Shown here one piece after another: positions 1 to 64,000 of a stretch of DNA of 64,000 nucleotides. The translations under genes and the position numbers were made by a program. The notes beneath the pieces are model-generated. The model ran no database searches. It saw only the letters and a list, made by a program, of their open reading frames with translations, and had not been told where the DNA came from. Location of the stretch: NCBI RefSeq assembly GCF_018320785.1, contig NC_054886.1:33339732-33403731 (forward strand), in the 5' to 3' direction. The number at the start of each line of letters is the position of its first letter. Position 1 is the first letter of the stretch. This stretch comes from Cheilinus undulatus (lineage: Eukaryota; Chordata; Actinopteri; Labriformes; Labridae).

Positions 1-816
1 CAGATTTGACTGTTATCCTCCAACACCAAGTATAAGAGATTATCTGCTCTGAGTAAGACTTCTGTTGTCCACCACACGTCTACATTTATCTGCCTTATAA
101 AAATGGACACCATCCTCAGAATCCTACATATTCAAGCAGTTTCATTTCTAAGGGCTTCAGCAGTTTCTCTTTCTTCAGCATCTCTCGCTCATAACTGATT
201 TTCATCTGCTCAAACTTCTGCTGATCCTGTAATAGTTTTTCCTTTTCTCTCAACAGTTCCTCTGGATTGTCAGACTCCTGCTCTCTCTCTGTTATCTCTC
301 TCTCTACTGACTGAAGCCTCCTCTTGTTCTCCTCTCTGTCTGCCTGCAGCTCCTGAAGCTTTGTTCTGAGTTGATCTCTCTGTGTCTCCAGTTCAGTCTT
401 CATCTCTGTCAGTAGAGAGACCATGTCATCACGGTCATCTGGACATGGTCTTCTTCTTCTGAAATCTTCAAGAGAAGACGTGAACAAGGAAGACGCATCA
501 TTAAAACTCTTATGAAACAGCATTAACACTCAAGTATACATCAGGGCCATTTCTACCCTCACAGCAATCTAACACTATAAGGCATTCATGACATGTAAAC
601 TACACGTATGTGCTCAACTTGCAACAGTGCTGCACCAACATCTTAATGCCCTCCTGACACTAATTTGAGGTAAACGCCTTAAATCATTTAAGAACAGCAG
701 TTTCTGATGTAGAAAATGGTACTTACTCTCCCCAAAAGGAGGCGCTATTATCTGTGTAAAATATTACTATGTGATTGTGTGAAAGGCGGCCCCTCATGAT
801 ACACAGGAAGTTTGAG
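1..816. repeat. Segmental duplication block, copy 1 (partner 35463-36278)
   Basis: This block matches 35463-36278 at a constant offset of 35462. I noticed only two base differences, near 327 and 480, in about 816 bp. It holds the final exon of a butyrophilin-like gene plus flanking intron and 3' sequence. The partner copy ends at the first N of the assembly gap, so this is either a very recent duplication or redundant haplotype sequence placed twice. The left limit is unknown because the window starts here. Confidence 0.9.
116..465 (-). CDS. Butyrophilin-like gene, last coding exon (coiled-coil tail), copy 1
   Basis: A single reading frame of about 116 codons ends in TGA at 116-118. It is opened by a good acceptor (pyrimidine-rich tract then AAG at 466-468) that gives phase 1, the phase used by every junction of the complete butyrophilin-like gene at 29156-33635. 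The product is almost pure charged heptad sequence (MVSLLTEMKTELETQRDQL then LREKEKLLQDQQKFEQM), a cytoplasmic coiled coil like the tail exon of that gene, and ends KLLEYVGF. No Ig or membrane exon that joins it in phase was found between 466 and 5300, so the upstream exons are far away, lost, or misassembled. The butyrophilin assignment rests on tail type and phase, not on a seen Ig domain. Substitutions relative to copy 2 are T/M and R/T. Confidence 0.6.
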
Positions 817-5363: not shown

Positions 5364-8300
5364 ATGGACGTCACATCTCTCTGCAGCAGACTCAGTAAGA
5401 TCAGACTCTTCTGGCTTCATAGCTCATTGTTCTCATTAGAAAGTATGTTAAATCTACAGTTTTCTCATTTCCTCTCTCCAGTGGTCGCTGTGATGGTTCT
5501 GCTGGTTGCACAGATTAACCAGAGTCACTCTGCTCAAAATGCTGGTAGGTTTCAAACTCAGTCTATATGTCAGTCTGAAACATTATTTATAATAATCTGG
5601 CATGCTGATATGTAGGTTTTGGTGAAATGTTAGCAGGAAACTGGTTCATATGAGACAGTGAAAACAGTTTCAAAAACTAATAAAACTTCAACCCTCTCTT
5701 AGAGGGATAAAATTATACTAAGAATAAAGCAGAAATGTGTGCCTAGTTTCATGAATATGTAGCAGTTTTTACCTGTCAATAAGTATGTGAATATTATTTT
5801 TTTCATTTGATGCTTTAAGCTGAAATAATCTTTTTTTGTGTGTGTGTGAATATGCAAACATACCTTAATCTGACTGCTTTGCTCTAATTTGTTTGTAATT
5901 TTTACAGACAGAGTTTTTCCTCGTATTACTCCAGACAGACTGCAGTTCTTTGAGTATGAGACCGTCCACATTAGTTGTGAAGAGTTGATGGGACTGACTG
6001 GATGGAGAGTGATGCACAGGCACAAAAAAACAACAAATTTTAACATCTGTACCCCTCCTGCATCAAGCTGCACCATTCAGCCTGCCTTTGAACGACACAG
6101 TGGAGGGTACTGGTGTGAAGACGATGAAGGAAACACCACTGGTTCCATCAACATCTCTGTTACTGGTATGTACTAAAACATAGCAGAAATCCAACCTGAC
6201 AACCAAGGTCAAAGGGCAAAGACTGATAGTCTGATATTTTACAACATGTCATTAATTTTCATTTTGTCATATTATTGCCTCTAGTTTTAATCATCCCTCT
6301 CTAAACCCAATGGCTGACGAGGGGTAAAGTATTTACTGTCACCATGTTTTGATGGGGGATTTTTCTACCTTTGAATATTTAGCTGTTGTTGTTAAAGCTG
6401 TTGTTCCCACAATCCTGGTCAAAGCGTACCACCTTGTTGATGAATTTGCTGCACTGATAGTAAAATTTTCCGTTGACTATGAGCACATTGTCATTGCTGG
6501 TGATTTATACATATGGAAAATCATGCTAATCCAAACACAAAACAATTTCTCAATATTCTAGACACATTTGAACTTACACAGTGGACTGGACCAACCAATA
6601 AGCATGGATACACCCTCAATCTGATTTTATCTAAAGGCCTCAATATAGCAATAACAATCACTGATATTCTGGATGTTGAGCTCTCAGGCCATTTTTGCAT
6701 CTTCTTCTATATGACCCGCACAATCAGAAATGAAGATGTGGTCAGAACTGTAAATAATATATGACCCATAATCTGCTCATCATGTCATTGATGATATGAT
6801 GGACAATTTCAACTATATTGTGTGTCACATCATACAACTAAAACATAGGTATTTAAGAGGAAACACAAGGCTCCTTGGAGAAACGGGGAAGAGTAAGGAT
6901 GCTTAAAAGAATTTGCAAAGTTGATGAACTAAATAGTGAAAAAAACAAACTTCACCTACATTATGATATTTGCAAACATGCACTTGCAGCCTACAGTAAA
7001 GAAATTAAACTGTTGAGACAGCAGCACATCTCAGAAATTATAAATGAAAACAAAAACAATACACAGTACCTGTTCTCCACAGGTGATAAATTAATCAGTC
7101 CCCCCAGATCAACCCTGCTGACTTTCTATTGTCAAATAAGTGTAATGAGTTTGCCGCTTACCTCAAAGAAATCCGATCTTTCATTACTTTAAAAAACTGT
7201 CCAAATTAAAATGCACGCCTTTAAACTTGTTACTTATAATTTTTTCATGTATTATTTATTTATCCATGTATTTAAGTCTTCTACCTGCTCTCTTAACCCC
7301 ATCCCTAAAACACTATTCAAATGTGTCTCTACAGGCTGGTATTCATATAAACATTTAAACAATTTAAGTTCAAGATCAGTAATACCCTGATAACGAGCGA
7401 TAAACACTATTACAAATTATATACTTCCAGTATATTACAGGAAAGGAACTGACACAAGACAGAGAGGAGGAAAAAGAAAAGAATGGAAGAAAAGTGGTGT
7501 TTATATTTATTTATTACATTTTATTTGTCATGTAGGAATTATTTATTCATGCATTTCTTGATTATTTTTTTTTTCCATATTGCGTAGCTCCAGAACATGG
7601 GTCTTGTTGAAGCGCAAAGTGCTATTATTGTGATTATCTTTGTAATTACTTGTTGTCATAGTTCTAATTAAACAATTCTACACAAACACACACACCTACA
7701 CACACAAATAGACATGGAATTGAAGAATAGATAAGAAAAACTCCAAGTCACTCTCTTTTAACATTGAAACACCTTTAGTTCTGCAGCACGGTCAAATAAA
7801 AGCATTTCAATGTCTGAAGAGAGTGCCTTGGAGTCTTTTCTTGTTTATATATATATATATATATATGTATTATTTTATATCTTGTTTATTCTTAAAAAAA
7901 GTTCCTCCCTGCTTGTCTCTGTCTTGTCACACAATACTGTTGCATCTTTCCACAAAGTCAGATGTGGGCCGACTGTGGCTCAGTCGAGAGAGTCAGCTGT
8001 CCCACAGTTGGAAGGTTGTGGGACAACCAGCTCCTGCAGTCACATGCCGATGTGTTGTTTGGCAAGACCCTTAACCCAGATTTGCTCCCACTGATTTGTC
8101 GGTGGTGTGTAAATGGGAATGGACGTGTATGCCTGAGATTAGCTAATACTGATGGCCACTTCTCCACAGCAACCTCTGCCATCAGTGTGTAAATGTGGAG
8201 TTGAATTGGTAGGTGTAATGTGCACTGTAAAAGTGCTTTGAGTGGTCACATGACTACCACAATGCAGTATCTATAAAAACAAAACAAACCTAAATCAGTG

Positions 8301-11300
8301 GATCATGGTCAACGTTTGGATATTTACACAAGTACTGTAGACAGTGGTATGACTGTAAATTTAGACATCAGAGTTGGATGGATCTGTGCCAGTTTTTTTT
8401 GTGATTAATGAAGAAAAATTAAAAAATACTGACAGCCCCATATGAGACATACATTTCATTATTTGATGACAAGATTTGTTGTAAAATTCAGGTTAAAGTT
8501 CAGTACTCAGCACTACTTAGTGTTACAGTACTGTTTATTTATGGTAAAAAAAATGACCTGATATCTTTGTGTGATATTTTCAGCTGGATCTGTGATCCTG
8601 GAGGTTCCTGCCCGTCCTGTGATGGAGGGATCTGATGTGACTCTTTTCTGTAAAAATCAGAAGTTTCAGTCAGAGCACATTGCTGATTTCTACAAAGATG
8701 GCGTCTCTCTTGGGATTGTTCATGGTCACATGACCATCAAAAATGTTTCCAAGTCTGATGAAGGATTTTACAACTGCAGCATAGCAGGAGCTGGACAATC
8801 ACCGGAGAGTTGGCTGGCTATCAGAAAAAAGAAAAATGAACCAGACAAGGAGATTCAGCCCCCACAGAAACACTCCCCACATCATTCTACCATACTTTGG
8901 ATTGCTGTCAGTATTTCACTGACTGTTATTTTTCTGTTTGTGCTGGGATTCTTTCTCTGCCAGAAACACCAAGGTACAGCAGTGCTTCAACCATGTTTTG
9001 TGTTGAAATGTCCTCTACTTCCTGTTTTTGTAACTCCAACATTCATAATTCACTGTTTTTAATGAGCTGCATTGAAGCTCTGCTTCTTTATTTATTATTT
9101 CTAATGATTTCCTCTTTATTTGTCTGTTTAGTGTCTTGCAAATCAACACCAGGTTCTCACTCACAAGAAGAGAATATAGGTGAGTAAAACAACCATAGAC
9201 TATTAAAATAAAATATTATTAGAGACACTGCTCTAGGAGGGATGTTGGATGTTTGTCTGGAACTTTTCTCATCTAACAAGCACACAAACAAACCAGACAG
9301 TTTCTGCAGAAACAACATTACCGCTGTGTTTCTTTACAACATAACTGAATTTGCTTTCATATGCATATATCTATACAGAGCTTGACAAATGTATTAGACC
9401 ACCTGTCATATCTGTCTCAGACATATTAATGACCACCCTAACCCTAACCAAAGTAAGGTTTATGCCACAGCTGCCCTAAATTAACAGCATTGGTAATGAC
9501 CAAAATCATTTTTATGTTTCTGCAATGGTTAATACACCAATATGTAGAAGCTCTTTAACCCAAATGATATTTTTGATGCTAAAATAGAATTATTATTGTT
9601 ATCCATGAATTTCCAAATTTAGTGATTTACAAAAAACCTGAAAAAATAGTAAAGTACATTAATATTTCTTGATTAATATGTCAAATTATAGTTATTTACT
9701 TGCATTCCTGAACAGAAAAATGAGTTTTAGTGGTTGAATGTTATGCTTGATTCACTTCTGACTTCTCAGAGAAGCCCAATGAGCCGGCTCAAATTTGGGT
9801 GAATTCAGTTTGAAATTCCTCATTCCTGTTCAAAATGGTAAAACGTGGAGAGCTGACTGAAAATGAAAGAGTCCGCATTAAAGCACTTCATGATGCTGGA
9901 TGGTCTCTGAGACAGAGATGACAGGTGGTCTAATACATTTGTTAAGTACTGTATATACATATTTTCTATCATTGCTTTATTGATATCTCATGTTGTATTT
10001 TATTTTGAATGTAACATACTGTATGACAAAAATACTACATATATATATTTCTGTTTCTGTGAATGTTTCAGTGTCAGGACAGGGCAGTAATGCTGATCCA
10101 CTACATGCCACATATGCTGTAGTCACAAAAACTAGGAAAAAAGGTAAAATACTTTATTATGTCTAAATGTATTTAATAATGAAACTCTAAATTCTTGATC
10201 ATGCAAACATGTTGTTTAAACAAAAAAAAAAAAAAACATATTTAGAAGATTTCTTCTTTTGTCTTTTATGTTTCAGCATCAGTTGGAAACAATGCTGATG
10301 AAGTCACGTATGCTCAAGTTGAAAGCTTCAGGAGGGACAACGGTAGCTATAAGATATATTAAACCTAACCGTGTGCTAAGTCAACACTAGCTTCTTTAAC
10401 AACAAAATTATATAAATAATTACAAAGTTGTTCATTTTTGATTGAGACTTCCATTCAGCCTACAGTTGTAAAGAGAACATGTCAAATTTAGAGATCATTT
10501 TATTGGATCCATCATAATATTAATGACTGTAAAATGAAACATCTCCCCCTCTACGGAAGCAGATTAGGGCCATTAGGGAAGGAGAAAATAATTTTGGATA
10601 AATCGAGATTAAAGTCGAAATGACGAGAATAAAGTCAAAACTTGTTATTATTAACAGTGGATCATATACACTGTGTGTTTATGTGGCAAAGAGAGAGAGA
10701 ATCTCTTTGTTGATAAATTCAATAAAGAGGTGTGATTTCACATATTCATTGATATGAGGCTCATTTAGTAGAGACAGTTATTCTGTTATTGTCTTAAATA
10801 CTCATACATCTACAGGAGCACAGCAGCGCTCTTGCCTCTCTTCCTCTTCTGTCTGATCACCTGTAGAGACGCACAGGTGATAGACAACCACGTTACCTCA
10901 TGGGAGAGCGACGGGAGATTGATTGCTCGTTTATTGATTATAGACAAGTTGCTGCTAATGACAAAATGTTTTTAAAAAAAGGCAAAAAAGGAACACTTTG
11001 TCACGTGTTGTATTGAAAACTCTAGTTAACAGTATTGTGTATGATACATAAAGAAAATGTTACCTGCAAAACGCCATGTCCACAATGAACATTACATTTG
11101 TGTATGGAATTTAGAAACAAAAGTGCCCGTATGTTTTTATTGCTGCTTTCATGCAGCGCCTCCATGCTTCCCTTCAGATATGTCAGTAGAGTTGTTTATA
11201 TTGGTGTTGTCTCTCCCACCACAACAAACACTGATCAATAAACAAGTGATGAATCCCCCTTCGCTCTCCCATTACCGAGGCTGAGTCTGTCACCTGTGCG

Positions 11301-12179
11301 TTTCTACAGGTGATCAGATGGAGGAAGGTGTTCTCTCTCTCATGTTAATGTACGAGTATTTAAGACAATAACAGAGAATCGTGCCTATATCAATGAATAT
11401 GTGGAAATTATACATCATTATTGGATTTAACAACTCTTTGCCACATAAACACGCAGCGTCTATGATCCGCTGTTAATAATAAAAAGTTTCAACTTTTTTC
11501 TGTCATTTTGACTTTAATCTCCAAATTTCAACTTTATTCTTGTCATTTTGATTTTAATCTCGACTTGTCCAAAATTATTTTCTCCTTCAAAAATGGCCCT
11601 GATCCTCTCCCGTACCTCTTCAGATGCTTTAGTTTGATAACACAGAGTAGACTAGACCGTGAACGTTTGACAAAATTATTCACATGGAGAGTTACTTAAA
11701 AATGTAAGATATATGACCTGAATTCCAAAAAAGTTGGGATGTCACGTAGAATGTAAATGAAAACAGAATGCAATTATCTTCAAATTTCATAAACCCATAT
11801 TTTAACCACAACAGAACATAAACAACATTTCAAATACCGAAACCATTTCATGAAAAATGTTAGCTCATTTTGAATTTAATGGCAGCAACACATATAAAGA
11901 ATTAAAAAAAAATAAATAAATAAAAAAACAAAAAAAGGGACAGGGCTGTGTTTACTATTGTGTAGCATTCACTCTTCTCTTGTTCTGCATTAGATATAGC
12001 AAAATGAAACCTGATAACAGAATTTTAACATGTGAATATTTAACAGAAAAACTAAGAAAATATGACTGATGGTTTTAAGTATGACTGATAGTTTTCTCCC
12101 CACAGACAGGCCAAGTGCAAGAACACAACCAAGTCCGATGAAGGACAGTGCCATCTATTCTTTCATTACCAAAAGGTGA
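5364..12179 (+). CDS. Fc-receptor-like (FCRL-type) two-Ig membrane receptor with ITIM-type tail
   Basis: Eight phase-compatible exons (5364-5394, 5482-5544, 5908-6165, 8584-8973, 9132-9179, 10072-10143, 10277-10342, 12106-12179) give about 333 residues. Order: split signal peptide (MDVTSLCSRL, then VAVMVLLVAQI); Ig domain 1 (HISC..GYWCEDDEG) with an extra NIC..SSC pair; Ig domain 2 (VTLFCKN..DEGFYNCSIAG); membrane segment ILWIAVSISLTVIFLFVLGF without charged residues; cytoplasmic tail with three tyrosine motifs, ATYAVV, VTYAQV (a canonical ITIM) and AIYSFI. Exons 6 and 7 look like duplicates of each other (SNAD..TYAVV and NNAD.VTYAQV). The stop is TGA overlapping the exon 8 donor; splicing onward would also give an immediate stop. 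A downstream in-frame stretch running into an AAT repeat (12390-12509) is probably not coding. Likely a leukocyte inhibitory receptor at the plasma membrane; ligand unknown. Introns are swollen by a LINE, a SINE and DNA transposons. Confidence 0.85.
6230..7200 (+). mobile_element. LINE fragment (L2-like), endonuclease plus linker, in intron 3
   Basis: Translated pieces match the apurinic endonuclease of fish non-LTR elements: STFEYLAVVVK, then YEHIVIAGD, then FLNILDTFELTQWTGPTNKH.GYTLNLILS, then LSGHFCIFF where SDH is expected. They are followed by the linker between endonuclease and reverse transcriptase (RVRMLKRICK..HYDICKHALAAYSKEIKLL..EIINENKNN). The frame changes several times and no reverse transcriptase follows, so it is a dead, 3'-truncated copy. 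It is in sense orientation within the host intron. Confidence 0.75.
7845..7867. repeat. Microsatellite (TA)n
   Basis: Short pure TA run in intron 3 of the Fc-receptor-like gene. Confidence 0.8.
7963..8285 (+). mobile_element. tRNA-headed SINE, teleost type
   Basis: Begins with an A-box-like TGTGGCTCAGTCGAGAGAG and a degenerate B-box region (GGAAGGTTGTGGGACAACC). The body carries CAGTCACATGCCGATGTG, TTGGCAAGACCCTTAACCCA and TTGCTCCCACTGATT. The end is AAAAGTGCTTTGAGTGGTCA followed by CTATAAAAAC. This word order is characteristic of a widespread tRNA-derived SINE group of spiny-rayed fish. It lies in intron 3 of the Fc-receptor-like gene. Confidence 0.75.
9376..9951 (+). mobile_element. Tc1/mariner deletion derivative (576 bp) in intron 5
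   Basis: Ends CAGAGCTTGACAAATG and CATTTGTTAAGTACTG are inverted repeats extending inward through TATTAGACCACCTGTCAT, and the element is flanked by TA on both sides (9374-9375, 9952-9953). From 9835 an ATG opens the start of a Tc1-type transposase (MVKRGELTENERVRIKALHD then AGWSLRQR) and stops after 28 codons. Internal deletion therefore left both termini and the first DNA-binding helix. This family differs from that of the Tc1 copies at 4300, 11722 and 61389. Confidence 0.85.
10552..11614. mobile_element. Long inverted-repeat (foldback) DNA element in intron 7
   Basis: Left arm 10552 to about 10970 and right arm about 11200-11614 are reverse complements over roughly 400 bp. Shared landmarks are GGAGAAAATAATTTTGGA, a GAGATTAAAGTCGAAATGAC/GAATAAAGTC pair, TATTATTAACAG.GGATCAT, TTTATGTGGCAAAGAG, CATATTCATTGATAT, TCTGATCACCTGTAGA.AC and GGGAGAGCGA. 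The unique centre is only about 230 bp. No transposase is visible, so this is a non-autonomous element. I saw no clear target duplication. Confidence 0.8.
11722..11985 (+). mobile_element. Tc1/mariner terminal fragment
   Basis: Begins AATTCCAAAAAAGTTGGGAT and includes AAACAGAATGCAATTATCTT, AAACCCATATTTTA, TTAATGGCAGCAACAC and GGGACAGGGCTGTGTTTAC. These are the successive landmarks of the terminal region of the Tc1-like family found at 61389-62428. There is no transposase part. An A/AAT-rich run interrupts it. It sits just upstream of the last exon of the Fc-receptor-like gene. Confidence 0.75.
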
Positions 12180-12449
12180 GTATAGTATAATAATCTCATT
12201 CACTTGATTTTGTATTTTTATTTCTGAATCTATTCAACAGAAATTGGATCCTTCTCAAAGCTAACACCCACACTGTTTTAGTTTGTTTTTAGCTGTGTTG
12301 GTTTGAAGAGTATACCTGTAAATGTAAGGCTGGCAGACATCAAATGCTTGAAGCATGCTGTTTCTTACTTTCTATTGTATGTTTTTTTAGGTAATTTTCA
12401 CAAGACCGATGGATCAAGAACAAGGTCTGCCTCATACTCTGCTCTTGGT

Positions 12450-12505
12450 GTTAATTTATTATTATTAATAAAAATAATAATAATAATAATAATAATAATA
12501 AACAA
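12450..12505. repeat. Microsatellite (AAT)n
   Basis: About 15 near-perfect AAT units just past the end of the Fc-receptor-like coding region. An open frame through it reads poly-isoleucine, which I regard as chance. Confidence 0.85.
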
Positions 12506-12509
12506 ATAA

Positions 12510-15108
12510 AAGAGATTTATGAAAAAAAATGTTAATCATCAAAAATGAAAATACACCAGTGATATGTAATATTAGATCTGAATGTAAGTAGTGATGAAAA
12601 TGCTAAAGGTGTATAAGATTTATACCAAGCTGTGAGAGAACAGTTGTGGTGGAATGAAAGTTCACACTGCGAGTCTTGATTTACAGTGAAAGACCATTTT
12701 TCATAATTTTTCAGCTCATATTTTATGAGTTAAAATAGGCACAAACAGTGACAAAACAACATCACTAGTGAACACAACTAGCAGCAAAATAAGAACAAAT
12801 ATTACATATCTGGCTAATTCTCTACCTATTTCCTGATTTAAGATGATTTCCTTGAGTCTGAAAGAGAATCTTGGAAAGCCTCAAAGATGTGGATTCTGAG
12901 GGAAGCATGTGCAGTCATATGACCAAAATATCAAACATGACATTAATTCATCCAAACAGTCAGGGACAGTGCTGGTCATCGATGCACAGTCAGACTGAAA
13001 GTCGGCCCGATGTTTAAGAGAGTTCTGCAACACAAAATGAGTGTCTGGATTGGCTGAGAACTGCACAGTGTACTCATTTATAAAGCATCAGTTTAAAGTC
13101 TACAACTGGAAACTATGCAACTGTTATTTTTAAACAGACACCACAGTCAAACACAAGCAGATTTTTTAAGGACAAAGGTCAAACTAAGGTTACGGTGTCA
13201 TTTCCTACTTCATAAATAAAGTCTGTTTTAAAAGAGGTCACAATTGTACAATAATGAAACCACTGGGAACAGGGCGTGTGTCACATCTGCAACTACAAAT
13301 CCTCATGAAAATGAAAATCAAAGCTCCTCTTTAACAACAGACTGAAAGAGTGATATGAAAAACTAAACAGGGTGGGCTTTTCTACTAACACTTGAGCAGT
13401 GTTAAAGGTCAAGTAAGAATATATTAAACCCTTGTTATTTGTTCTTGTTTTCTAAGTTCAGTTAAGACTTGGGTTGATGGTTCAGAGGTTCCTCTATTCG
13501 GGGCTTGGCACCCTTCTTAAACATGTTTTTACCTTAAGAGGTTGTATGAGCAAAACGAAAATATATTGGAGATCTTCACACATAATTTAAGTATTTGATA
13601 TAAAAAATGTATTTTAAATAAATGATTTGTTTGGCCATTAGTGAATTATGAACAAGGCTTTTCATCTTGACACAAATTTAGATGAAAGAATAGTTTCTTC
13701 TTTTCCAAAATCAAAGGTTAAATCAAAGGTGTAGTCTTTGTAGAAAAAGAATGACATCTTTGCTTCAGTCAGAGAATCTGAATCAGTGGAGACACAAAGC
13801 TCAAGTTTGTTTTTTAATCTTTATAGGAGAACAAATCAAAACTGAAGATTTACTGTAATCACAGAGTGAAAGTCTAGTTTAAAGAGTTCATCTTTCATAA
13901 CTGATTTAGTAAAATCTCTGAGTTGACCATGTATGCCTGTTTTATCCATTCATAGCCAGGCAAGTATATTGAATTGCTTGGTACAATTTGAATCTTTTAG
14001 AAAAGGCTTGTTGTGTGCTCAAATGAAAGGGTCCATAAGGCTGAACAGCGTAGTTTTACTAAAGTCTGTGCGGTTCACACCTGTCTTTCTTCATCTGTGG
14101 TCTTCAGCCTGACTGCATTCTCTGTGTCTATTGTAAGAGCGATTATACGTGTGACAGTTAAACCACATTTATTATCTGACATCTGATTAAGCTATTTATA
14201 AGAGCGGAGTGCTGCAGTCTTCAAATATTCTCAGTGTGGTTTATGATTAAACTGGTGAGGCTGAAGCGGCCGCGCTGAGTATAAAGACGTATTCATGACA
14301 ACTTTCCGTTAACATCTGAAACCAACAGCCTCATGCTCATCATCCCATATCGATGTTTCCTCAAAGCAGGAAATCACACCACATTCAAATAGTGACAGTC
14401 TGCTCCTACAGGCTTGCACTTGAATTTAAGTAAGGCATTCTGGGTTATAGACAGGCTTCAACATACTGTAGACCTTTAGAAGCAAATCATTGAAAGCTTC
14501 TCCATTTATGTTGGGATTGACTGCATACACATTGAAGATGTTTCACCTTGAAAATATCTGTGTTCTCAAAATACCGTGCCCACTGTTTCCTTCTTATTTA
14601 TACAATACAGAAATGAGTATTGTCTTTGCTAGTTTTGTCTACGTTCCTGAATTCCACTGATGTTGTTGCATAGATTACACCTGCAAACATTTCTTTTCAA
14701 ATTGTAAGTTGGAAAGTTGTGAGAGATGTGTATTTTAGGAAAGAAAAGAAACATACCCCACCCATGGCAAATGTGTGATTGACTTATAAAATGCTTTTTT
14801 CACTGTTTTAATAAATGAAGCAGTAGTATGATAAATGCAGATTGAATTCATGTTTATTCATTCAACCATCTATTAATGTTTATCTGTTTAATTTGGCCTT
14901 CTTTTGTCAAAAGATGTAAAAAACATCCGAAAGTATATATATTTTTCCTTCCAGTTATATCTGCAGTGCTCATAATGAATCAGGTCTTGACCCTTGTATA
15001 TAATAATCTAATAATATGAACATATGAGAGTGCAGTTTGATTTTGAGGCTTTAAACTGTGTGGATTTGTTTCATCACCTTCATCCTTGTAACTTAAATGA
15101 GCCAATTA
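12510..15108. other. Gene-free stretch
   Basis: I see no exon with plausible splice sites, no conserved domain and no complete repeat here. It is AT-rich, consistent with 3' flank of the Fc-receptor-like gene and old decayed sequence. Confidence 0.5.
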
Positions 15109-15858
15109 AAGACCCTGTAAAGTGAAATCCAAAACTTGTGTCTTAAAACACTAGAAATGTTAGACTATGGTTGCTGTAAACATGTGAAAACACTGAGATC
15201 TACATGTAACTGAATTCTGGATTTAGACCATTAGAAAGCTTTTCACCTCTTTCCTGGCTTGGTTTAATGTGGGCGGGGCTAATATGGGCAGAATGACCCT
15301 GCCCCTCTAACACTACAATCTAAAATCACAGAGCAGTTCATCTCAGTCCAGTCTGTTGTTAGCTGATGTCTCTGCCTTTATTGTAAGTTAACAGTCAGTT
15401 AAATGCTGTTTTTCTGTTCATTAAGGGTAAATTTGAACTATCATAACAGAGATTTGAGCTAGAAAGTGGACTTTGCCTCTTCTAAGGTACAGAGCCAGGC
15501 AGCTGTGCTAGGACCATAAGGTCAAGGGGTGGGCTAACAGTGTGAGAGTTTTCCCACATTCAGATTGTAGCATTTCTAAATCTGAGAAGATTGCATATCT
15601 CCTAAGTGGGCGTGGCTTCAGCTCATTCAACAGACACGCCCACACCATCCTAGAGCAGATTTTACTGCCCTTAATTTTCATGATTTTGAAGCTTCATTTT
15701 ATAAACTTAGAGATGATTTATTGTTATATTATATTATATGATATTATATTATATTATATTATTGATGTTTCATTGAAATGTGACCTGGGGGTTCATAACA
15801 CAGTAATCTGTCAGACAACAAATGTAAATACAGATTTATTTTCACTTTACAGGGTCTT
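15109..15858. mobile_element. Non-autonomous DNA transposon with AAGACCCTGTAAAGTGAAA ends
   Basis: The left end AAGACCCTGTAAAGTGAAA at 15109 is matched in reverse complement at the right end (15840-15858), and both sides carry TA. The interior is non-coding and includes a TATTA microsatellite (about 15718-15766) and a GGGCGGGGCTAATATGGGC stretch. It is about 750 bp. A TA target duplication would suit a Tc1/mariner-type MITE, but the superfamily is an inference. Confidence 0.75.
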
Positions 15859-15859
15859 T

Positions 15860-16750
15860 ATGCAGAGATGTAAGCGCTGATAATGTAACAGTGATGCATA
15901 ATGTAAGAAATTTATTTTTGATTTTTATAATTACAATTCCTGCTGCATTATTGAGAACAATTTTTGCCTTTAACAAATCCCCTTTGGGAGCTATTAAAAC
16001 AGTGTGCAGACTTCACTCTTTCCTTTTGATTGTTGGTCTGGCACCTGTTTTACTTTCTTGGATGTGCATGCATTTCTCTATTGTATTGCTGTGCCACATA
16101 CCTCAGTATTCACAATTCAACAATGGCACTTAAACTGAAATGCAAAAGCTTCAATTAAGCTTAAAGTTACTTTATATTTTTAAAACACAGAGGAGAGGCG
16201 ATTATCATGGTAATCTATAAACTACTGACTCACTCTATAATGTAATAAAATTATTACACTACCTGGAGAAAAACTGTTTTGCCTGCTTCATAGTATAAAA
16301 AAGATGCTACATGTAGTAAGTAATTACAACATGTGCAAAACTGTTAACATTATCAGCTCTTACAAGACAAGTTGCAAAAAACACATCAAAGAGACCTGTA
16401 ATACCCTTTTGGATTTTTCCATTGTATTAACCCTGACTGTTTCATCAAGCATAAAGCAAAGGGCTGATCCTAATAGTGATGTACTGCCCTCCTGTGTCAT
16501 GATGTGAAAAAATTGGTTTACTATCCACCATTTAATACACTGATAAAAAATGTACAGTGACACCCTGTACAGTCAACAACCTTCACCTGCTTACTGCTGG
16601 TAGAATCTTTTATCAAACATTAAAGTAATTTATACATTTTCCTTACAAAATCAGCTGTTTTAAAGGTAGATGAAGATTAAATATATGTTACAGCAAAAGC
16701 AGGACTGAGATGTCATTTTCAATTTTTTTATTTCATGCTGTTTAATCCTC
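15860..16750. other. Gene-free stretch
   Basis: Short open frames on both strands have no recognisable domain, no consistent splice sites and no coding bias. Confidence 0.45.
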
Positions 16751-16754
16751 TTAA

Positions 16755-17345
16755 GATGGCGCCGATTGACCGGCAGCTTTTTTACAGCAGCTCTGAGGAC
16801 TCTCTGGAGTTTTTCCTTCTTAATTCGTCTTTATTTTATTTCTTGTTACTCTTCTTTGTTTGGTTGTGTTTTTAAATCCTCAGAGACACCAAGAATGGTG
16901 CTTCTAGTAAAATTTTTTATTTACTTTTTAAACTTTTTCTCCGCGTCTGTGGGTCTGTGAGCGGCAATGGCCATTGTTTACAGCAGGGACCAGCTGTTGG
17001 CCCAGCGTAGCACAGCTGTGCGGCCGGAGTAGTGACCTGATGTCCCCCGCAAGTTCAGGAGGAGGGTGCAGAGGTGCCGTGCCGGGATCAAACGCCGCAA
17101 CAAGGGGAGAGCTTATTGACCGGCTCTCCTGTCCGTCATCATGGGGAACGTAAGATCTCTCCCCAGTAAGATGGACGAGCCGGCGGCGTTGACCTGACAT
17201 GATCAGGAGTTCCGGCGGTGCAGCATGCTGTTGTTCATGCAGCACGCGGACGCAACCGTAGCACTGGATGGATTTTCCCTATTACAGGTTGACCGGACAG
17301 AGAGGAGCAGTAAGAGGAAAAGAGGGGGGCTGGTGGTGTAAGAGA
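16755..17345 (+). mobile_element. LINE 5' fragment (L2/CR1-like)
   Basis: It starts at AAGATGGCGCC, like a LINE 5' end. Translation then gives AIVYSRDQLLAQRSTAVRPE and, in another frame, VMGNVRSLPSKMDE, the phrase that opens the endonuclease domain in fish L2/CR1-type elements. It is followed by VDRTERSSKRKRGGL before the similarity ends. Several frame changes and no downstream endonuclease or reverse transcriptase make it a dead fragment. GC content is higher than its surroundings. Confidence 0.65.
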
Positions 17346-17349
17346 TAGT

Positions 17350-17960
17350 GTAACTCCAGGCACATCACTATCAAAGAGCAGCACTGCTGCCCGGACATTT
17401 AACAGTTGGCGCCCATACTCCACGTATGCAAATTTTCAAACCGCAAGACAAACGTATGCGGCAGTAATCTTGGAATTAGCGTGTAAACTGATGAAAACGG
17501 TTCATTGAAAATCTCTCCAAGATCTTCCCGAGATGAGATTTCAATGGAGCGAACTGATGAGGTCATCACAGTATTATCTCCTGACTGGTTCGTCCGTGCT
17601 GCCAGCAAAGCGGAACAGACCGCCCCCACAAGGCCTTTTAGCCATTTAGTAACACAGTAAATAAACACTTACCAAACAGATATGTCCTGCTCTATCCTTC
17701 ACTGCTGCTGGTTTTCTTCCCCCTCTCTCTCCACACTATCAGGGTCAGACTCCGGGTCTAACATGTATGGACGTATATCAAAATTCACCATATTTTACTC
17801 CAGTTCTTTCAAACTTTACAACTACTAGCATAGCAACATAGCCACATTGGAGAGGGCGGGCACAAAACATTGAGTCCTGCTGCCGGCCAGCCTCCAGAAA
17901 ATCGGCCAATCAGAGGAAAGCAGGTCGGGGGGGGGGAACAAATGAAAGAGAAGGAGGATG
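17350..17960. other. GC-richer non-coding stretch, probably repeat-derived
   Basis: Sequence from CTCCACGTATGCAAATTTTC to a G-run near 17930 is less AT-rich than its flanks and has no sustained open frame. I cannot assign it. The following 17960-18870 shows nothing recognisable. Confidence 0.3.
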
Positions 17961-18879
17961 AGAGAGATGAGGGTCAACCTAAACCAGAGACAGAAGGGAA
18001 GGAATGAAATAATTTAATAAGTTGAATCAGAAGGAACAAAAGACAATGACATAATACTTATTAGGATACTTGGCATTAAAATGACATTACATAAAGTGGC
18101 ACTAGCCCTGTATGCATTGTATATTAAGAACTGCCTATAGTGGAGCTCTGTGATTTTTCCTCTTCTTTGTTCATCTTTTCCTACATTGACACTTCACCAC
18201 AAAACATGACAGATTTTTTAAATGAAAATCAAAACACAGAAAAAAACACTTAAGCAGTAACGTTTTACTTCGACACTCATAAACTCAGCTGCCAATTAGA
18301 ATTTGTGTATGTGGATTTCTTTTTATTCTCTTTAAGTCTAAAAACCTACACTGAATTCTGATGTGCTTCATCTCCAGTGCAACACCCAAAAGCAGCTCTT
18401 ATCAACCAGATCATGGGTTCAGTGTTCATTTTAAAGCATACATGACCATTAAATCCAGGATAGAAATGATTACCTGTATAAAGTCAGTATTTTTGTTGAT
18501 GTTGGCCCACAGAAAATCAATGTTTGGGTCCTGTCAGTCCTGTCAGCATGCTTTGAGTTTAAAATAGTAGTTTTATTGCTCTGCCTTTTGTTTCTTCTTC
18601 TGTAGTTTATTGATCATAATCCAAGCATCACAGTGTTTCATCTAGTAACCTTTGCCTATTCTGATTTTTGTGACCACAGTCGTTAGACCAAAAGTTATTG
18701 AACAGCCAAACGATAAAACCTACAATGTAAAAAAATGAATGAGAATCGACACTGCAGTCAACACGATTCAAACACTGGAGATACTATATACAGCCAATTT
18801 TAATCTTGCACCTGTGTTTTGCGTACTGTTCTGGATAGGTTTGGGGTCTTTTGGGGTCAAACTATGAGCTGGTATTAAA

Positions 18880-20665
18880 CAGAGGTGCAGCAGCTGGAAA
18901 ACAGACATGAATATGTGCAAATAAGCAATAACAAGTCTGACATGCTACAGGTCACGTGTGGGGTCCCACAAGGATCAGTGCTGGGTCCTATATTATTTAT
19001 ATTGTACATTAATGATATTTGTAATGTGTCAAAATTGTTTAATTTAATTTTGTTTGCTGATGACACAAACTTGTTTTGCGCCAGTAAAAACCTGAATCAT
19101 CTTCTGGATACGGTGGTAAAGGAAATGGATGTTTTGAAACGATGGTTCAATGTTAATAAATTATCTTTAAATGTTAATAAAACTAAATACATGATATTTG
19201 GAAATCGGAAAGAACAATGCAAATGTAAAAGTTATGATAGATGATATTGAAATAGAACGGGTTTATGAGAATAAACTCTTAGGAGTTATCATAGATCACA
19301 AACTGCTGGAAACCTCATGTTAATTGCATTAAAACTAAAATATCAATGTCAATCGCTATATTGTATTAAACCAAAAATGTTCTTAATTTAAATTTATTAC
19401 ATATGTTGTATTGTTCTTTCATACTTCATACATTATTTTCTGTGTGGAAGTTTGGGGAAGAACATATAAAACAATCATAAATCCAATTTTTTTGCTTCAA
19501 AACGATCAGGCTCATAAACTGAGCAGATTTGTCATGATCCAGGTTTTGATTTATTATGTTTCTGAGTTTTCCTATGGTTATCCTTTGTGTATTCTGTGAT
19601 TTCTAGTTTGACTTTGTATTAGGTTTAGTTCTTAGGTGTTATCTGTAGCCCTTGTGTTTCCTTTGTTCAGCTTTTAGTCTTTAGTTCAGTTCATTTCGTG
19701 TTTTATATAGTCTTTGTGTTTCTGTGTATTTTGGGCTTTTGTTATTTTCCATGTGTCTAGTTTTTTATTGTATTAAGTAATTCCCTGTGTTCCATGTTTA
19801 GTTTTACATCCCTTGTGTTTCATGTGTAGTACTCCATGTATTTCTTGTCTAGTTTATTTCCCTGTTTCATGTTCAGTTTTTGCTCCTTGTGTTATGTTTA
19901 GTTATTCCCTGTTTCATGTTAAGTTTCCCTGTGCTTCTTGTTTTGTTTCATGTTTTAGTTTTACTCCCTGTGTTTGAGTTTCCCTCCTTGGTTCTTTGTA
20001 TCCTCCTGTATTTTCAGTATTTCTGTAGTTTAGCTTCTTGTGTCCAGTTTTCAGTCCTTGTGTGCTTCTTGTGTTAGGTCCCATGTTTCCTGTTTTATTT
20101 TGTAGTTGCCTTCCCTTGTGTGTTATTCCAGTTTTGCTTCCTGCCTGAGTTTCCCTCCACTTTGATTATCCTTCACCAGTTTCACCTGTGTCTGATTGTC
20201 CACACCTGTCTGCCATTGTTAATCACTCCCTGTGTATATAAGCTCTGTGTCTCCCTGTGTCTGTGTTGGTTTATTGCATATGTCTTCCTCGTGTCAGCTC
20301 CTCGTGCTTCCTCGTGCTCCTTCGGATTTTGTTTTGTTTCTTTGAGTTTGATTCCTGGATTTATTTTGAGTAAGTTCTTTTGTTTCATTAAATCAGTCTT
20401 TTGTGTTATCTGCATTTGGGTCCTCCCTTTTGAGTTTTTTTCCCCTGAAATCCCTGACAAGATTATCGAGAACCAACACACAAATTATTTATAAATCTGC
20501 AGGTTCTAAAATTTTGTGAATTGGTTGATTTGAGAATAGCCTCACTGATGAACAAGGCATACAATAAGATGTTACCAGATTGTATCCAGAGGTTGTTTCA
20601 GATTAGAGAGTGTGAGTATGAACTAAACACAATAAACTTACAAAGAATTATGTTATGATTCAAAG
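18880..20665 (+). mobile_element. LINE reverse transcriptase fragment, split by a solo LTR
   Basis: 18945-19240 encodes the catalytic core of a non-LTR reverse transcriptase: CGVPQGSVLGPILFILYIND, then ILFADDTNLF, the FADD active-site box, then WFNVNKLSLNVNKTKYMIFG. Thumb-region pieces follow (YENKLLGVIIDH, then VWGRTYKTIINPIFLLQ). After the insertion at 19530-20459 the same element resumes (LKFCELVDLRIASLMNKAYN, then LPDCIQRLFQI). Frame breaks show it is dead. Clade uncertain (Rex/L2-like). Confidence 0.75.
19530..20459. mobile_element. Solo LTR of an LTR retroelement (930 bp)
   Basis: The unit begins TGTCATGATCC and ends CCTGACA (TG...CA ends with a short TGTCA/TGACA inverted repeat). It is flanked by a perfect 5-bp duplication AGATT (19525-19529 and 20460-20464). 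A TATA-like GTATATAAGC near 20235 and an ATTAAA signal near 20388 fit U3/R/U5 organisation. The body is pyrimidine-rich with many CTTGTGT-type words. No internal coding region is present, as expected after LTR-LTR recombination. It lies within the older LINE fragment. Family not assigned; the intact duplication suggests a fairly recent insertion. Confidence 0.85.
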
Positions 20666-23480
20666 AGGTTTACATTATAAATGTCTAAAGAGCAAAATAA
20701 ATCCCAGTATAAGTCACAGTGAGGTCATACTGATCAAATTGATGTTAGTTTTTGTGTCAAACAAGCTGGTTTAATGAAATGTTATTGAAGTTTACACACA
20801 TTACTGTGCCAACTGTAAAGAGTCTTCTTTTTCATAATCATCTAAGTCAGAAGTTAAGACTCTTCTAATGAAATTTAACAAACTTACCTTGTCTTTGGAG
20901 AGCAGACATTTATGGGAAAAATTACAGATCAGATAACGTACAATATTATGAAGACCAAATTTCAGCATCCAGCGCCTCATGTTTTCATTGGTGACTTTAT
21001 TTAGTATAAAATGGTTCCCATGACCAAATTCATGGATCGCATACAGCTCTGTGGACATAATATGGTGCTTAACACATCCTGACAGTAATGTGTGACTGAA
21101 ATTAACTCAAGTTGGGGAAAATAAATAAGAATTGGATCAAAAAGATTTTGTTGGTCAGGTTTGAGTATCTTTAGAGGTTAAGAGTTACACTGTGAGGATC
21201 TGGCTGATGACTTAATAAAACTTCTAAGAGTGAAATAAAGAGAGACGGGATGTTATTTCACAGATCTGCTGTATTAAAAATAAATATAAAGACACAAAAA
21301 CTGGTAACATATTAACAAGGATGTTCAGGTTTTTCTGTTTTCACATTTATATTACATTGCCATGAAATAACTTTTGTTTTTTTAGTTTTCAGGATGTTTC
21401 ACCCAACAGTCCCATAAATGTAGTCCCTTTACCATCAGTACACTGGTTCTCCATCACACTGCTGTCTGTCTTCTTCTAACACACTATGGAGGTAAATAAA
21501 CACAAAACTGTTCAAACTTAAAGACTGACTCGACCATTTTCATTTGGGGCTTATCATGAACTTTCTATTGTTCATGTTTATTTTATATATTTGTTTGTTT
21601 ATTTGTAAAGGGACCATGTACAATAAAAAACAAATGTTTCCATTTGATGCATTGTACCAGAGTTAGCGTAAAGCTAATTTACATCTGCAGTCCCTTGGCA
21701 GGTCACAATGCATTTTACATGCATTTCCATCCATTACAGTGTGCAGGGGCCTGACCCTAGATTCATGCATTTTCATTCAGCATTAACACATAATAATCTG
21801 TCAGGTGTGTGCTGCTGTGTGATCTGAAAACAAAGAAAAAGACACAGAATGTAAGATGGAGAACTGTTTTACTCCCAAAGACATTTTTATTTCATAGATC
21901 ATCACATTTACATGTGTATACATTAAAGTAGAGGAACAAAACACTCAAACATAACAAAATGATGCATTTTTGGGCTGATTTATTAGAAAATAGTTAACTC
22001 AGTTATTCCTCACATTAAAGAGTTTTTAGTTTATGCTTTCTTAACACTGCTGTTGTTGCCTCTGAATCAAAAAACAGTGTTAAGTCAATATTTTACAATA
22101 TTTTGCCAATAGAGGGCAGAAATGTCCTCTCATTAAAGGAGCAGTCTGTGTGTTTTCACACTTTTCTCTCACAGATTATTAACAGTGAAACTTTGTGGTT
22201 CAGTTCTCTTATATGGTTGTTATTAACCGCTGTATTGTTATTATCATTATAGATATGTCTACCGCTGTGAGTCTGTCTGGGGTCAGACTTTGGTTGATGG
22301 TTCTAGTTTACCACAGACAGTCTGACAGAGGTCACAGCGATCATGTTCTCATGTTCTCAGCTATTTCAGACGTGAACAGACTGAGTACAAACACCAAGGT
22401 GATTCAACCTCTACAGTGTCCTTATTTCTACAGCTTTTCAAAATAAACCTAGCTGGGTGAGACACTTTTTAGCCCAGACCGGAAACTTCCACTTCTGAAC
22501 ACCTATGAGACAACGCTGCAACTGAAGGAGATGATGTGTTGTGTGCATAGCCCCAGCTCTCACAGCCACTTATTTTAAGATATTTTTTTTTTCAAGCATT
22601 GTGCTGTTTATCTACCTCTACATGAAGAACAGTGCTGCACATTCTGCTCAGTAAGATGCACACACATAAAGAAGCAGTCACTGATAGCTCAGTACTTTTT
22701 CTTTTTTTACTCTTTTTGCCTTTTTTTTCAGACATTTAACATATTTTATACATTCTGAATCAAAAAAATGTTGCAGAAAAACAGAATATATGATAGTCCA
22801 AAAGTCAGGATTACTATTAAAGGCCAGACTCCAGCTACAGAAATGTCTGGTCCCCCAAAATGATGAATGAATGAGCCTCCCATAGATGGTATCTACAAGT
22901 CTCCATTGATAACAAGCTATAATTGGATTTGAATAAATCACTATTCTTTCTTTTGGTAACAACTTCAGAGCCTGATTTAATAAATTCAGTGTTCATGATG
23001 TTAAGAAAAAAGAAAAGAAAAAAAAAATCCCCCTCTACCATCCAGCTGGGCCATGGAAACCTCCACCACAACAGCTCACAGAGACTGTCTTCCAGTATTC
23101 AGTGTTTCTGTGCAGCTATCTGAAAGAGATGCAGAAAATATGTTAAAAACAGCTGATGAGATATGAAAGGGATGTAACCCTGATCTCTTTAGACCCTTTT
23201 CCTTTGTCTCCTTTTTTGTTATTTGTATTTACGACACATTTTGGATGCATTTTCTTTGCAGATGACACCTGAATTTATTGTTCTGTGTCCAAAATTTCCA
23301 CAGCCACTTGATAGATCATAAAGGAAATGAGCTTCAATGAATAATCATGATTTTTTGTCCATTATCATTCTGTTATTTGACTAATAACACAACTAAAATG
23401 AAGCATATGACAGAATGGAGAAAAGCTTATTTAAATGTAATGTTTTGAGTCGTATAGTCAGACAGTCAAGGCAGCAGGAG
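20666..23480. other. Gene-free stretch with one decayed repeat
   Basis: No exon is supportable. 21575-21760 (AAGGGACCATGTACAATAAA, then GCAGTCCCTTGGCAGGTCAC) resembles a dispersed fish repeat. The rest is ordinary AT-rich sequence with short chance frames, including an 85-codon minus-strand frame at 20801-21058 without recognisable features. Confidence 0.4.
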
Positions 23481-23511
23481 GTTGTACACACACTCTTCTT
23501 CAGAATCAATG

Positions 23512-25983
23512 TCAGCTTGATGTAAACTCAGCTGTGGAGAAACAGTGGAGAATGGTGTGGGTTAAACTGATAAAACTGCTGCCATGGCTTCATCAGAGCT
23601 AATCGCTCCACCATCAGCCACACCGAGTCACACTACAAACCTTTCTGTCAGAAATCTGGATTCATCATCTTCAACAAAATAGTTTTAACAAAACAGCGTC
23701 AAAAGTCAAAGTTTTAAACACTACAAATAAAACCTGCTAATACAGAAGGGACAGTATGACTGTCAACCATCCTTCCTGAAATGATAATGATAATGATTAT
23801 TTGTAGTATTTTAACATAAAGTTGGTTTTACTGACCTGTTTGATCTTCTTGTGGTGGTGATTTTCCAGACAATAAACCAAAAAAGTCTGAAAAAACAGAT
23901 AAAATCACCATAAGAAAGGCACAAAACAATGTAATCTTTTAAAACAGTAAATAAGCAAACGATAAGCAGGAAGTTGGAAAAATGAACTGAAAAGGAAACA
24001 AATAATCACACATTATGGTTTCTTGCATGTCTGTACCTTTGTGTATGCAGCAGAGGATCAGTCCTATTGCTACCAGAAACGTGAAAACTACTGCAATCCT
24101 AAAAATCCACACCTGGGTGGGAAAATTAGACGGATGTTGTTGTGGGGGTTGAAACTCTTTGTACGATATATTTGTGTTTTCTGTGACAGCCAGCCAACTC
24201 TCCGGTGATTGTCCAGCTCCTGATATGCTGCATTTGTAAAGTCCTTCATGAGACTTGGAAACATTTTTGATGGTCAAGTGACTATATTCAGACCCAAGAG
24301 AGACGCCGTCTTTGTAGAAATCAACGATATATTTTGATTCTGAGTTCTGTTTTTGGCATAAAAGGGTCACATTAGATCCCTCCATCACAGGACGGGCGGG
24401 AACCTCCAGGATCACAGATCCATCTGAAAAATGTCACACAAACAGTGTGTTAAAATCAGTTTTTGTACATAAAACATAAAGTCTGTTACTCTTTACAGTG
24501 TTAAAATAATTTGCACTGGATTTTTACTGTAAGAACTTCAGAGGGAAAAAGATTTTTGAAGCTGAACAGTGAACAGCATTATGACTTTAATTTATTAAAC
24601 ACAAAAAAACTGTTAAAACATAAGCACAGATTAATCACGTTTCCACATTATTAAGCAAACAACATTTTTCTCTTATTTTCCTAAATCTTAATGCAAATGA
24701 CAGAGTATTTTTCAAGTCATCAGCCATTAGAGCATAGTTCAAATGTTTTTGAACAAACTTTATAATGAAAACTGTTATTTTTAAAAAAAATAAAATCTCA
24801 AAATGCACTGTTCCACATTATTAAGCAGGCAACAAGTTTCAGCAACATGGGAAAGAAAAAGGATCTCTGCTGCCAAAAAGTGTCAAAATGTCATTTGCAT
24901 AATAATGAGGAAAGCAGTGTAATTAAAACTGAATGGTCATAGCCTTTTTCTTTTCCTTCTTTTCTTTTTGACAGTTTTAAATGGTGTAAAATTGTAAGGA
25001 AAAAAAACAGGCAGATCTAAAGGGTAACCAGTTGCACTGATTTTAGCAAATAAATGATAAAAAAAATTAGCTGTTTTTGTCTTACTCTATTAAAATGTAG
25101 CAAAATTAAAAAAAAAAAAAAGCAGAGCTGCTAAATGAGATTAATGGAATGTCTTCTTTTCCATCCTTTTTTACAGGCAGAAAGTGACTAACTCAGTGGA
25201 TATCTTCACTCATGGTGCAGAAGTGTCTAACATCAACAACAACAATAATCCACCAGGTTTGAGTCTCCTGGTGTTGTCTTACATACCAGTAACAGAGATG
25301 TTGATGGAACCAGTGGTGTTTCCTTCGTCGTCTTCACACCAGAACTCTCCACTGTCCCATTCGAAGGCAGGCTGAATAGTGCATCTTGATGCAGGAGGAG
25401 TACAGATGGAAGAATTTGTTGTTTTGTTGTGTCTGTGCATCACTCTCCATCCAGTCAGTCCCATCAACTCTTCACAGCTAATGTGGACGGTCTCATACTC
25501 AAAGAACTGCAGTCTGTCTGGAGTAATACGAGGACGAGCTTCACCTGAGGGTTACAAGGAAAGAAAGGAACCTGTTTAACTTTTATTCAACTTATTCTTT
25601 TTTTTAGAAATCATGGTTTATAGGTGAGAGTGCATTTTCTGCTTCATTTCACAAATAAACATATTTAGTTTCTCTCTTGTCCGACTTTTAAAATAATAAA
25701 AGCAGTCTCTGTGTAAACATTGTTCTGTTTAGATGTTAGCAGAAGACACATAATCATATGTTTTAATATTAGAGACACAAGCACAAACTGAGTGTGAAAC
25801 CTACCAGCATTTTGAGCAGAGTGACTCTGTTTAATCTGTGCAACCAGCAGAACCATCACAGCGACCACTGGAGAGACAAAATAGAGATTTTATACATTTT
25901 AGTTATGAGAAAAAATAATAATAATGTAGTTATGAGAAGAACCTGAACTCACAGAGTCTGCTGCAGAGAGATGTGACGTCCAT
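23512..25983 (-). CDS. Fc-receptor-like two-Ig receptor, short tail, Arg in membrane segment
   Basis: Six exons on the minus strand (25953-25983, 25805-25867, 25287-25544, 24037-24423, 23836-23886, 23512-23531) join in phase to about 269 residues. The first three exons have the same lengths as in the gene at 5364 (31, 63, 258 nt) and are nearly identical. Order: signal peptide (MDVTSLCSRL..VAVMVLLVAQI), Ig 1 (HISC..EFWCEDDEG), Ig 2 (VTLLCQKQ..LYKCSISG), then a membrane segment VWIFRIAVVFTFLVAIGLIL with an arginine near its outer end, as in receptors that pair with ITAM adaptors such as FcR-gamma. The spliced tail is short (DFFGLLSGKSPPQEDQT, then AEFTSS) and has no tyrosine. Another frame of the last exon reads DIDSEEECVYNLLLP, perhaps the ancestral tail. 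Likely an activating partner of the inhibitory paralogue; adaptor use is inferred. Confidence 0.85.
24560..24925 (+). mobile_element. Tc1/mariner-like transposase N-terminal remnant
   Basis: TTCCACATTATTAAGCA occurs twice (near 24640 and 24811), followed by AACATGGGAAAGAAAAAGGA. This encodes MGKKKDL, which I recognise as the start of a fish Tc1-like transposase. The frame then collapses. It sits in intron 3 of the minus-strand Fc-receptor-like gene, antisense to it. Confidence 0.55.
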
Positions 25984-36278: not shown

Positions 36279-36378
36279 NNNNNNNNNNNNNNNNNNNNNN
36301 NNNNNNNNNNNNNNNNNNNNNNNNNNNNNNNNNNNNNNNNNNNNNNNNNNNNNNNNNNNNNNNNNNNNNNNNNNNNNN
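36279..36378. other. Assembly gap (100 N)
   Basis: Exactly 100 N bases, the usual placeholder for a gap of unknown size. The missing sequence probably includes upstream exons of the copy-2 butyrophilin-like gene and of the SRCR gene. Confidence 1.
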
Positions 36379-63953: not shown

Positions 63954-64000
63954 GTTAGAGCATCACCACAGAGAGGAGAGACAGCTACACAGAATATAAA

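Follow-up and report, generated by a model that had tools for sequence, protein, structure and literature searches.

Two convergent Fc-receptor-like genes of Cheilinus undulatus that likely form an inhibitory/activating pair, with ectodomain exons that seem to have been homogenised after an old duplication

Background

This analysis concerns two genes that lie, in convergent orientation, within a 64,000-nucleotide stretch of the Cheilinus undulatus genome (contig NC_054886.1 of assembly GCF_018320785.1; the whole stretch is termed here the window, and positions are counted from its first letter). The genes, termed here the plus and the minus gene after the strands that they occupy, are best explained, with a probability of roughly 0.7, as encoding two-domain, FcR/FCRL-like type I receptors that constitute a paired inhibitory/activating set, in which the duplication is old and the ectodomain was homogenised later. 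This interpretation draws notably on the opposite membrane and tail features of the two products and on a contrast between the ectodomain exons, which differ little at silent sites, and both the introns and the signaling halves, which differ greatly.

Paired receptors are believed to offset mimicry by pathogens, inasmuch as an activating twin counters those microbes that bind the inhibitory member. In the mechanism proposed here, both products would bind the same or a similar ligand; the plus product, when phosphorylated, would recruit SH2-domain phosphatases, as immunoreceptor tyrosine-based inhibitory motifs (ITIMs) do, mainly via its VTYAQV motif; and the minus product would signal via an adaptor that bears an immunoreceptor tyrosine-based activation motif (ITAM) and an acidic membrane residue, for example FcR-gamma. 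An old duplication would have given rise to the two genes, after which exon-scale gene conversion or recombination would have homogenised exons 1-3 together with the D2-coding portion of exon 4, while the introns, stalk, membrane segment and tail went on diverging.

Results and Discussion

Two convergent genes with a common architecture

The plus gene comprises 8 exons (5364-12179) and encodes a product of 333 residues; the minus gene comprises 6 exons (25983-23512) and encodes a product of 269 residues; and the ends of the two genes are about 11 kb apart (Table 1). An earlier note on this DNA had described them as tail-to-tail paralogues with opening exons of 31, 63 and 258 nt in each, and the gene models bear this out: every modelled intron is GT-AG and, by exon-length arithmetic, of phase 1; both reading frames are intact to the stop; and tblastn, with the plus protein as query, detects both the minus exon encoding the first immunoglobulin (Ig) domain, D1 (E=9e-47), and that encoding the second domain, D2, together with the membrane segment (E=6e-46). 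In both genes D2, stalk and membrane segment are encoded by one exon. The products correspond to what is expected of paired receptors--that is, closely similar ectodomains encoded by linked genes--with 87% amino-acid identity in D1 and 60% over D2, stalk and membrane segment. AlphaFold runs on two-row alignments gave a mean predicted local distance difference test score (pLDDT) of 47.9 for D2 through the membrane segment and 57.5 for D1.

Opposite signaling halves

The other expected property of paired receptors, namely an ITIM and an uncharged membrane segment on one member and a charged membrane segment and short tail on the other, is likewise found. The plus membrane segment, LWIAVSISLTVIFLFVLGFFLC, contains no charged residue, in agreement with the earlier note, which had in addition ascribed to the plus tail a VTYAQV motif and two similar tyrosine motifs. 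Three YxxV/I motifs are indeed present (ATYAVV, VTYAQV and AIYSFI), only one of which, VTYAQV, fits the strict ITIM pattern, [ILVS]xYxx[ILV]. The minus membrane segment, VWIFRIAVVFTFLVAIGLILCC, has one Arg near its outer end, located 4 residues into the hydrophobic run and immediately ahead of the 19-residue hydropathy peak. The minus tail is short and, as the earlier note had also stated, free of Tyr; this holds for both readings of the 3' end, since exon 5 yields QEDQTAEFTSS and a stop when spliced to 23531-23512, and QEDQTGQ and a stop when read through. On the strength of these gene models and of the tail and membrane motifs, the paired inhibitory/activating layout proposed in that note is likely to be correct.

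Weighing against this assignment are the facts that two of the three plus-tail motifs are not strict ITIMs, that the minus Arg lacks the NxxR context of known FcR-gamma partners (PMC2413239), and that, when the membrane Lys of the catfish receptor LITR 2.6b was replaced, adaptor binding was not abolished, so that, according to the catfish study, a charged membrane residue need not determine adaptor binding (PMC4810170). One may also ask whether the minus product is activating at all: the Arg might mark the membrane border only, and the product might serve as a decoy or as a sink for ligand, or be a surface protein that works independently of adaptors. The position of the Arg just before the hydropathy peak, the missing NxxR and the short, Tyr-free tail would all suit such a role. 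Nevertheless, a basic membrane residue combined with a short, Tyr-free tail is the layout of stimulatory receptors, including catfish IpLITR 2.6b (PMC4810170) and the TM1 type of Xenopus XFL (PMC2413239), and we regard a non-activating minus product as unlikely. ITAM adaptors associate with basic membrane residues, and fish possess homologues of both FcR-gamma and DAP12 (PMC4810170).

The 3' ends of the two genes

The 20-nt last exon of the minus gene is proposed on the basis of one acceptor and a nearby AATAAA, which lies about 250 nt past that acceptor and about 230 nt past the proposed stop. The stretch to which it belongs (23531-23466, minus strand) is open in a second frame as well, where it reads LSLHQADIDSEEECVYNLLLP followed by a stop and contains a Tyr; a shifted splice would therefore produce a Tyr-bearing tail. 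This raises the question of whether the minus gene might be an inhibitory copy in decay, or one that was modelled wrongly, with its actual tyrosine tail in exons missed by the model, an explanation to which the shortness of the last exon and its alternative frame lend some color. A scan for missed ITIM exons demands the strict motif; run on the plus gene, it recovered a single one of the three exons that carry tail motifs, together with one false hit, and exons with non-strict motifs could thus escape detection. Yet several comparisons speak against a missed tail: the similarity of the region downstream of the minus gene to plus exons 5-8 was reached, at the nucleotide level, by 28-86 of 100 shuffles; among 250 sampled acceptors, the frameshift-tolerant score of the last-exon stretch was reached by 123 for plus exon 6, by 34 for exon 7 and by 100 for exon 8; the scan of 12180-23835 returned a single candidate ITIM exon, as against 0-6 in 20 shuffles; and the read-through of exon 5 is equally free of Tyr. 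A minus gene that conceals an inhibitory tail accordingly strikes us as distinctly improbable.

Two specific candidates were rejected on these grounds. The first, a decayed ITIM in the last minus exon, was suggested by the resemblance, by eye, of the shifted frame to an ITIM exon, but at the nucleotide level the downstream region resembles plus exons 5-8 no more than shuffled sequences do, and the exon 7 score is reached by 34 of the 250 acceptors; the second, a set of ITIM exons hidden beyond the 3' end of the minus gene, comes down to the one candidate that lies within the range of the 20 shuffles. No remnant of an inhibitory tail exon was recognised downstream of the minus gene by nucleotide comparison or by the strict-motif scan, the sensitivity of which is limited.

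At the 3' end of the plus gene, AATAAA sites occur about 290-330 nt beyond the stop. The stop codon (12177-12179) overlaps a donor-like AG/GTGAGT; were it used with the acceptor that probably comes next (TTTTTTTAG/GTAATT), an immediate stop, AGG TAA, would result, so that the plus protein would be unchanged. The last intron of the plus gene also harbors an inverted repeat (10552-10938 and 11234-11614) with arms of about 330 bases that are 74% alike, perhaps a transposable element.

Ectodomain exons are alike, introns and signaling halves are not

Divergence was estimated from the two copies alone. Silent differences amount to 0 over 21.7 sites in exons 1-2, 8 over 55.0 in D1 and 9 over 55.0 in D2, as compared with 17.4 over 30.8 in the stalk and membrane segment; expressed as silent divergence per silent site (dS), this is about 0.14 for the ectodomain exons and about 1 for the stalk and membrane segment, and the contrast between exons 1 through D2 and the latter gives p=2.4e-6 (Fisher test on rounded counts).

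Self-comparison reveals similarity in exons and hardly any in introns. The local alignment scores of introns 1, 2, 3 and 4 (23, 31, 32 and 22) lie near those of 60 shuffled sequences for each intron (maxima 21, 32, 34 and 29) and below those of all 60 simulations for each at 13% divergence (minima 47, 147, 705 and 66). At the same time, intron 1 is of nearly equal length in the two genes (87 nt in plus, 85 nt in minus), and global alignments surpass those of shuffles both for intron 1 (score 10 versus -28±8) and for intron 4 through exon 5 (0 versus -137±14), which indicates that the introns are most likely homologous and old. The likeness is not splice-site-exact everywhere: it extends about 15-20 nt into intron 2 and into intron 3 at either end, and the first 10 or so bases of exon 3 differ between the copies. 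Ahead of the ATG, a 300-base stretch is intermediate: its local score of 100 exceeds that of every shuffle (no more than 25) and falls short of every simulation (no less than 175).

Over the first 198 codons, differences occur in clusters (p=0.003; 5000 permutations): a divergent patch inside D2, codons 134-166, is flanked by stretches that are nearly devoid of silent change (1/24.7 and 0/19.0 sites). From the silent-site, intron and clustering results taken together, the duplication looks old, the signaling halves appear to have been different for a long time, and it seems that the ectodomain exons were homogenised at a later time, in at least two pieces. The earlier note had suggested a recent conversion of one copy. 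If this is understood as a recent change of the signaling half, it is not supported: a dS of about 1 in the stalk and membrane segment, introns 1-4 that can hardly be aligned and an ectodomain dS of about 0.14 speak against a recent signaling switch, and the recent element looks instead to be the likeness of the ectodomain exons.

Some features of the data detract from this conclusion. When the count is restricted to degenerate codons at which both copies have the same residue, silent changes number 11/154 in the ectodomain and 4/23 beyond it (Fisher p=0.11); the longest run of identical codons is not unusual within the first 198 codons (p=0.27), the corresponding value over 247 codons, which include those of the stalk and membrane segment, being p=0.04; the alignment of the stalk and membrane segment is loose; and the intron mismatch counts derive from forced alignments, although, being tolerant of gaps, these would, if anything, overstate intron identity.

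A simpler history also needs to be weighed, namely that these are duplicates of moderate age that underwent no conversion, whose exons were preserved by ordinary constraint and whose AT-rich introns, as in other fish, were turned over by insertions, deletions and transposons. Such a history would account for an ectodomain dN/dS below 1 (0.094/0.142), for the unequal lengths of intron 3 (plus, 2418 nt; minus, 863 nt) and for the failure of the identical-residue codon count to separate ectodomain from stalk and membrane segment. Constraint at the protein level, however, does not hold down silent sites, and these are less divergent than the introns: in exons 1-2 none of 21.7 silent sites differs, as against 18 mismatches over 77 aligned positions, and a further 18 gap columns, in intron 1 (Fisher p=0.010), and overall 17 of 132 silent sites differ as against 120 of 451 positions in introns 1, 2 and 4 (p=0.001, gaps excluded). 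Because introns 1-4 also score below the simulations at a divergence of 0.13, we consider duplication without conversion to be an unlikely history.

In the coordinates of the spliced message, the presumed homogenised region is nearly continuous--exons 1-2, D1 and most of D2, ending at the border of D2 and stalk--and this would fit an intron-sparing conversion, templated by a cDNA copy, that keeps the ectodomain exons of an old pair alike. We mention this as a long shot. Among the titles and the opening parts of abstracts listed by searches of an open-licence library, no description of gene conversion in a fish FcR-like pair was found.

Family assignment

The family was assigned using phmmer searches against PDB chains with the full minus protein and the plus ectodomain. 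In both searches FCRL5 was the top chain; FcgammaRI was matched across D1-D2 (E=2.7e-11 for minus, query residues 37-198, and 4.3e-9 for plus); FcepsilonRIalpha was a further match; and CD22, DSCAM and NCAM2 gave weaker-scoring matches in the minus search. No KIR or LILR chain occurred among the 53 and 22 distinct PDB-chain sequences matched at E up to 0.001. Pfam recognises generic Ig domains only, over D2. By virtue of this homology to FcR D1-D2, the ectodomain is FcR/FCRL-like, and the Fc-receptor-like assignment of the earlier note is upheld by these matches.

Other hallmarks of the family are lacking. Mammalian FCRL and classical FcR genes share with the present pair a two-domain ectodomain, as seen in the matches to FcgammaRI D1-D2 and FcepsilonRIalpha, yet differ from it in the leader: the family rule is a split leader with a second exon of 21 bp (PMC7940838), whereas the leader here, though split, has a second exon of 63 nt in both genes. 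Only a fraction of the frog XFL genes obeys the corresponding 30/21 rule (PMC2413239), so that the leader rule is not absolute outside mammals. Neither of two membrane motifs, (M/L)Fxx(D/N)TxL of classical FcRs and NxxR of FcR-gamma partners (PMC2413239), occurs in the minus segment: the former is absent from it, and at its N-terminal end the Arg occupies the expected position, though within WIFR instead of NxxR. Given an ectodomain that fits and the absence of the 21-bp leader exon, of NxxR and of the classical motif, 'FcR-like family' is an apt label.

Comparison with known paired receptors

Similar layouts are found in fish and frogs. The catfish IpLITRs, Ig-superfamily receptors that are distant relatives of the FcR/FCRL and LRC families (PMC4810170), include a stimulatory type with a basic residue in the membrane and a short tail free of tyrosine motifs, alongside inhibitory types; the likeness noted here is one of layout, and IpLITR 2.6b has a Lys where the minus gene has an Arg. 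Zebrafish had four FcRL5-like genes in an earlier survey (PMC4016189). The XFL family of Xenopus comprises paired receptors with similar ectodomains, of which the TM1 type bears an Arg and a short tail and the TM2 type is uncharged with 1-3 YxxL/I/V motifs (PMC2413239). It differs from the present pair in that TM1 has NxxR in place of WIFR and in that the TM1 genes encode membrane segment and tail in one exon, whereas in the present pair one exon covers D2, stalk and membrane segment, and further exons encode the tail.

With regard to homogenisation, two systems are instructive. In Xenopus ceacam, inhibitory and activating genes are oppositely oriented, conversion is confined to the exon of the ligand domain, and the flanking introns are poorly conserved; moreover, opposite orientation is proposed as a condition for conversion partners (PMC5112662). 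The convergent orientation of the present pair fits that condition. However, ceacam belongs to another Ig family, its activating members use ITAM or ITAM-like tails instead of a charged membrane segment, and it is the N exon that is affected, as opposed to exons 1-3 and part of exon 4 here. Primate SIGLEC11 and SIGLEC16 likewise form an inverted inhibitory/activating pair whose ectodomain likeness stems from gene conversion (PMC5701461), but they are arranged head-to-head and display a continuous genomic similarity of about 3 kb, about 2 kb of which was subject to conversions.

Surroundings and assembly

Between the receptor genes lies a reverse-transcriptase fragment (RVT_1, E=2e-15) at 18879-19241 on the plus strand. 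A butyrophilin-like gene (29156-31131, minus strand) has V-set and C2-set_3 exons above the Pfam cut-off and is adjoined by a long, charged, coiled-coil-like open frame with no Pfam match; a similar-looking open frame at 116-529 (minus strand) has sub-threshold coiled-coil matches only. Near the FcR-like genes is an SRCR gene (37617-40195, plus strand) whose product has three SRCR domains and, after them, an Ig domain; because the mouse chimeric Ig/SRCR gene FCRLS adjoins CD5L, which is an SRCR gene (PMC7940838), this closeness may reflect an old linkage. The start of a third FcR-like gene is visible at 63439-63955 (plus strand), where an ATG stretch resembling a leader is accompanied by a D1 exon at 63.7 kb; its D1 is 35-37% identical to those of the pair, and the gene runs off the window.

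Positions 35463-36278 (816 bases) repeat positions 1-816 of the window with two mismatches and are directly followed by a 100-N gap (36279-36378). This repeat may be a very recent duplication or an assembly overlap and may extend past the start of the window. That part of the locus is an assembly artefact, as repeat and gap could suggest, is nonetheless exceedingly improbable with respect to the receptor genes: the repeat is outside both of them, and, given their opposite orientation and a difference of about 7% for exon 3 and 19% for exon 4, they are not two haplotypes of one gene.

Table 1. Exons of the two receptor genes, in window positions
Exon	Encoded part	Length (nt)	Positions	Strand	Remark
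Plus exon 1	Leader start	31	5364-5394	+	30/31 nt identical to minus exon 1
Plus exon 2	Leader remainder	63	5482-5544	+	62/63 nt identical to minus counterpart
Plus exon 3	Ig domain D1	258	5908-6165	+	87% amino-acid identity to minus D1
Plus exon 4	Ig domain D2, stalk, uncharged membrane segment	390	8584-8973	+	
Plus exon 5	Membrane-proximal tail		9132-9179	+	
Plus exon 6	Tail, ATYAVV		10072-10143	+	
Plus exon 7	Tail, VTYAQV		10277-10342	+	Sole strict ITIM
Plus exon 8	Tail end, AIYSFI, stop TGA		12106-12179	+	
Minus exon 1	Leader start	31	25953-25983	-	
Minus exon 2	Leader remainder	63	25805-25867	-	
Minus exon 3	Ig domain D1	258	25287-25544	-	
Minus exon 4	D2, stalk, Arg-bearing membrane segment (VWIFRIAVVF)	387	24037-24423	-	
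Minus exon 5	Short tail		23836-23886	-	Weak homology to plus exon 5
Minus exon 6 (proposed)	AEFTSS, stop	20	23512-23531	-	Weakly supported

Conclusions

The pair belongs to a known kind, and the detail most worth following is the multi-exon, intron-sparing nature of its similarity. If conversion templated by cDNA were to prove true, then an RNA intermediate can renew the matched ectodomains of paired receptors. The genes also allow one to ask whether the opposite-orientation condition stated for frog ceacam (PMC5112662) holds for FcR-like genes as well. More generally, this compact fish pair provides a small system for exploring how ectodomains stay matched while signaling ends stay opposite.

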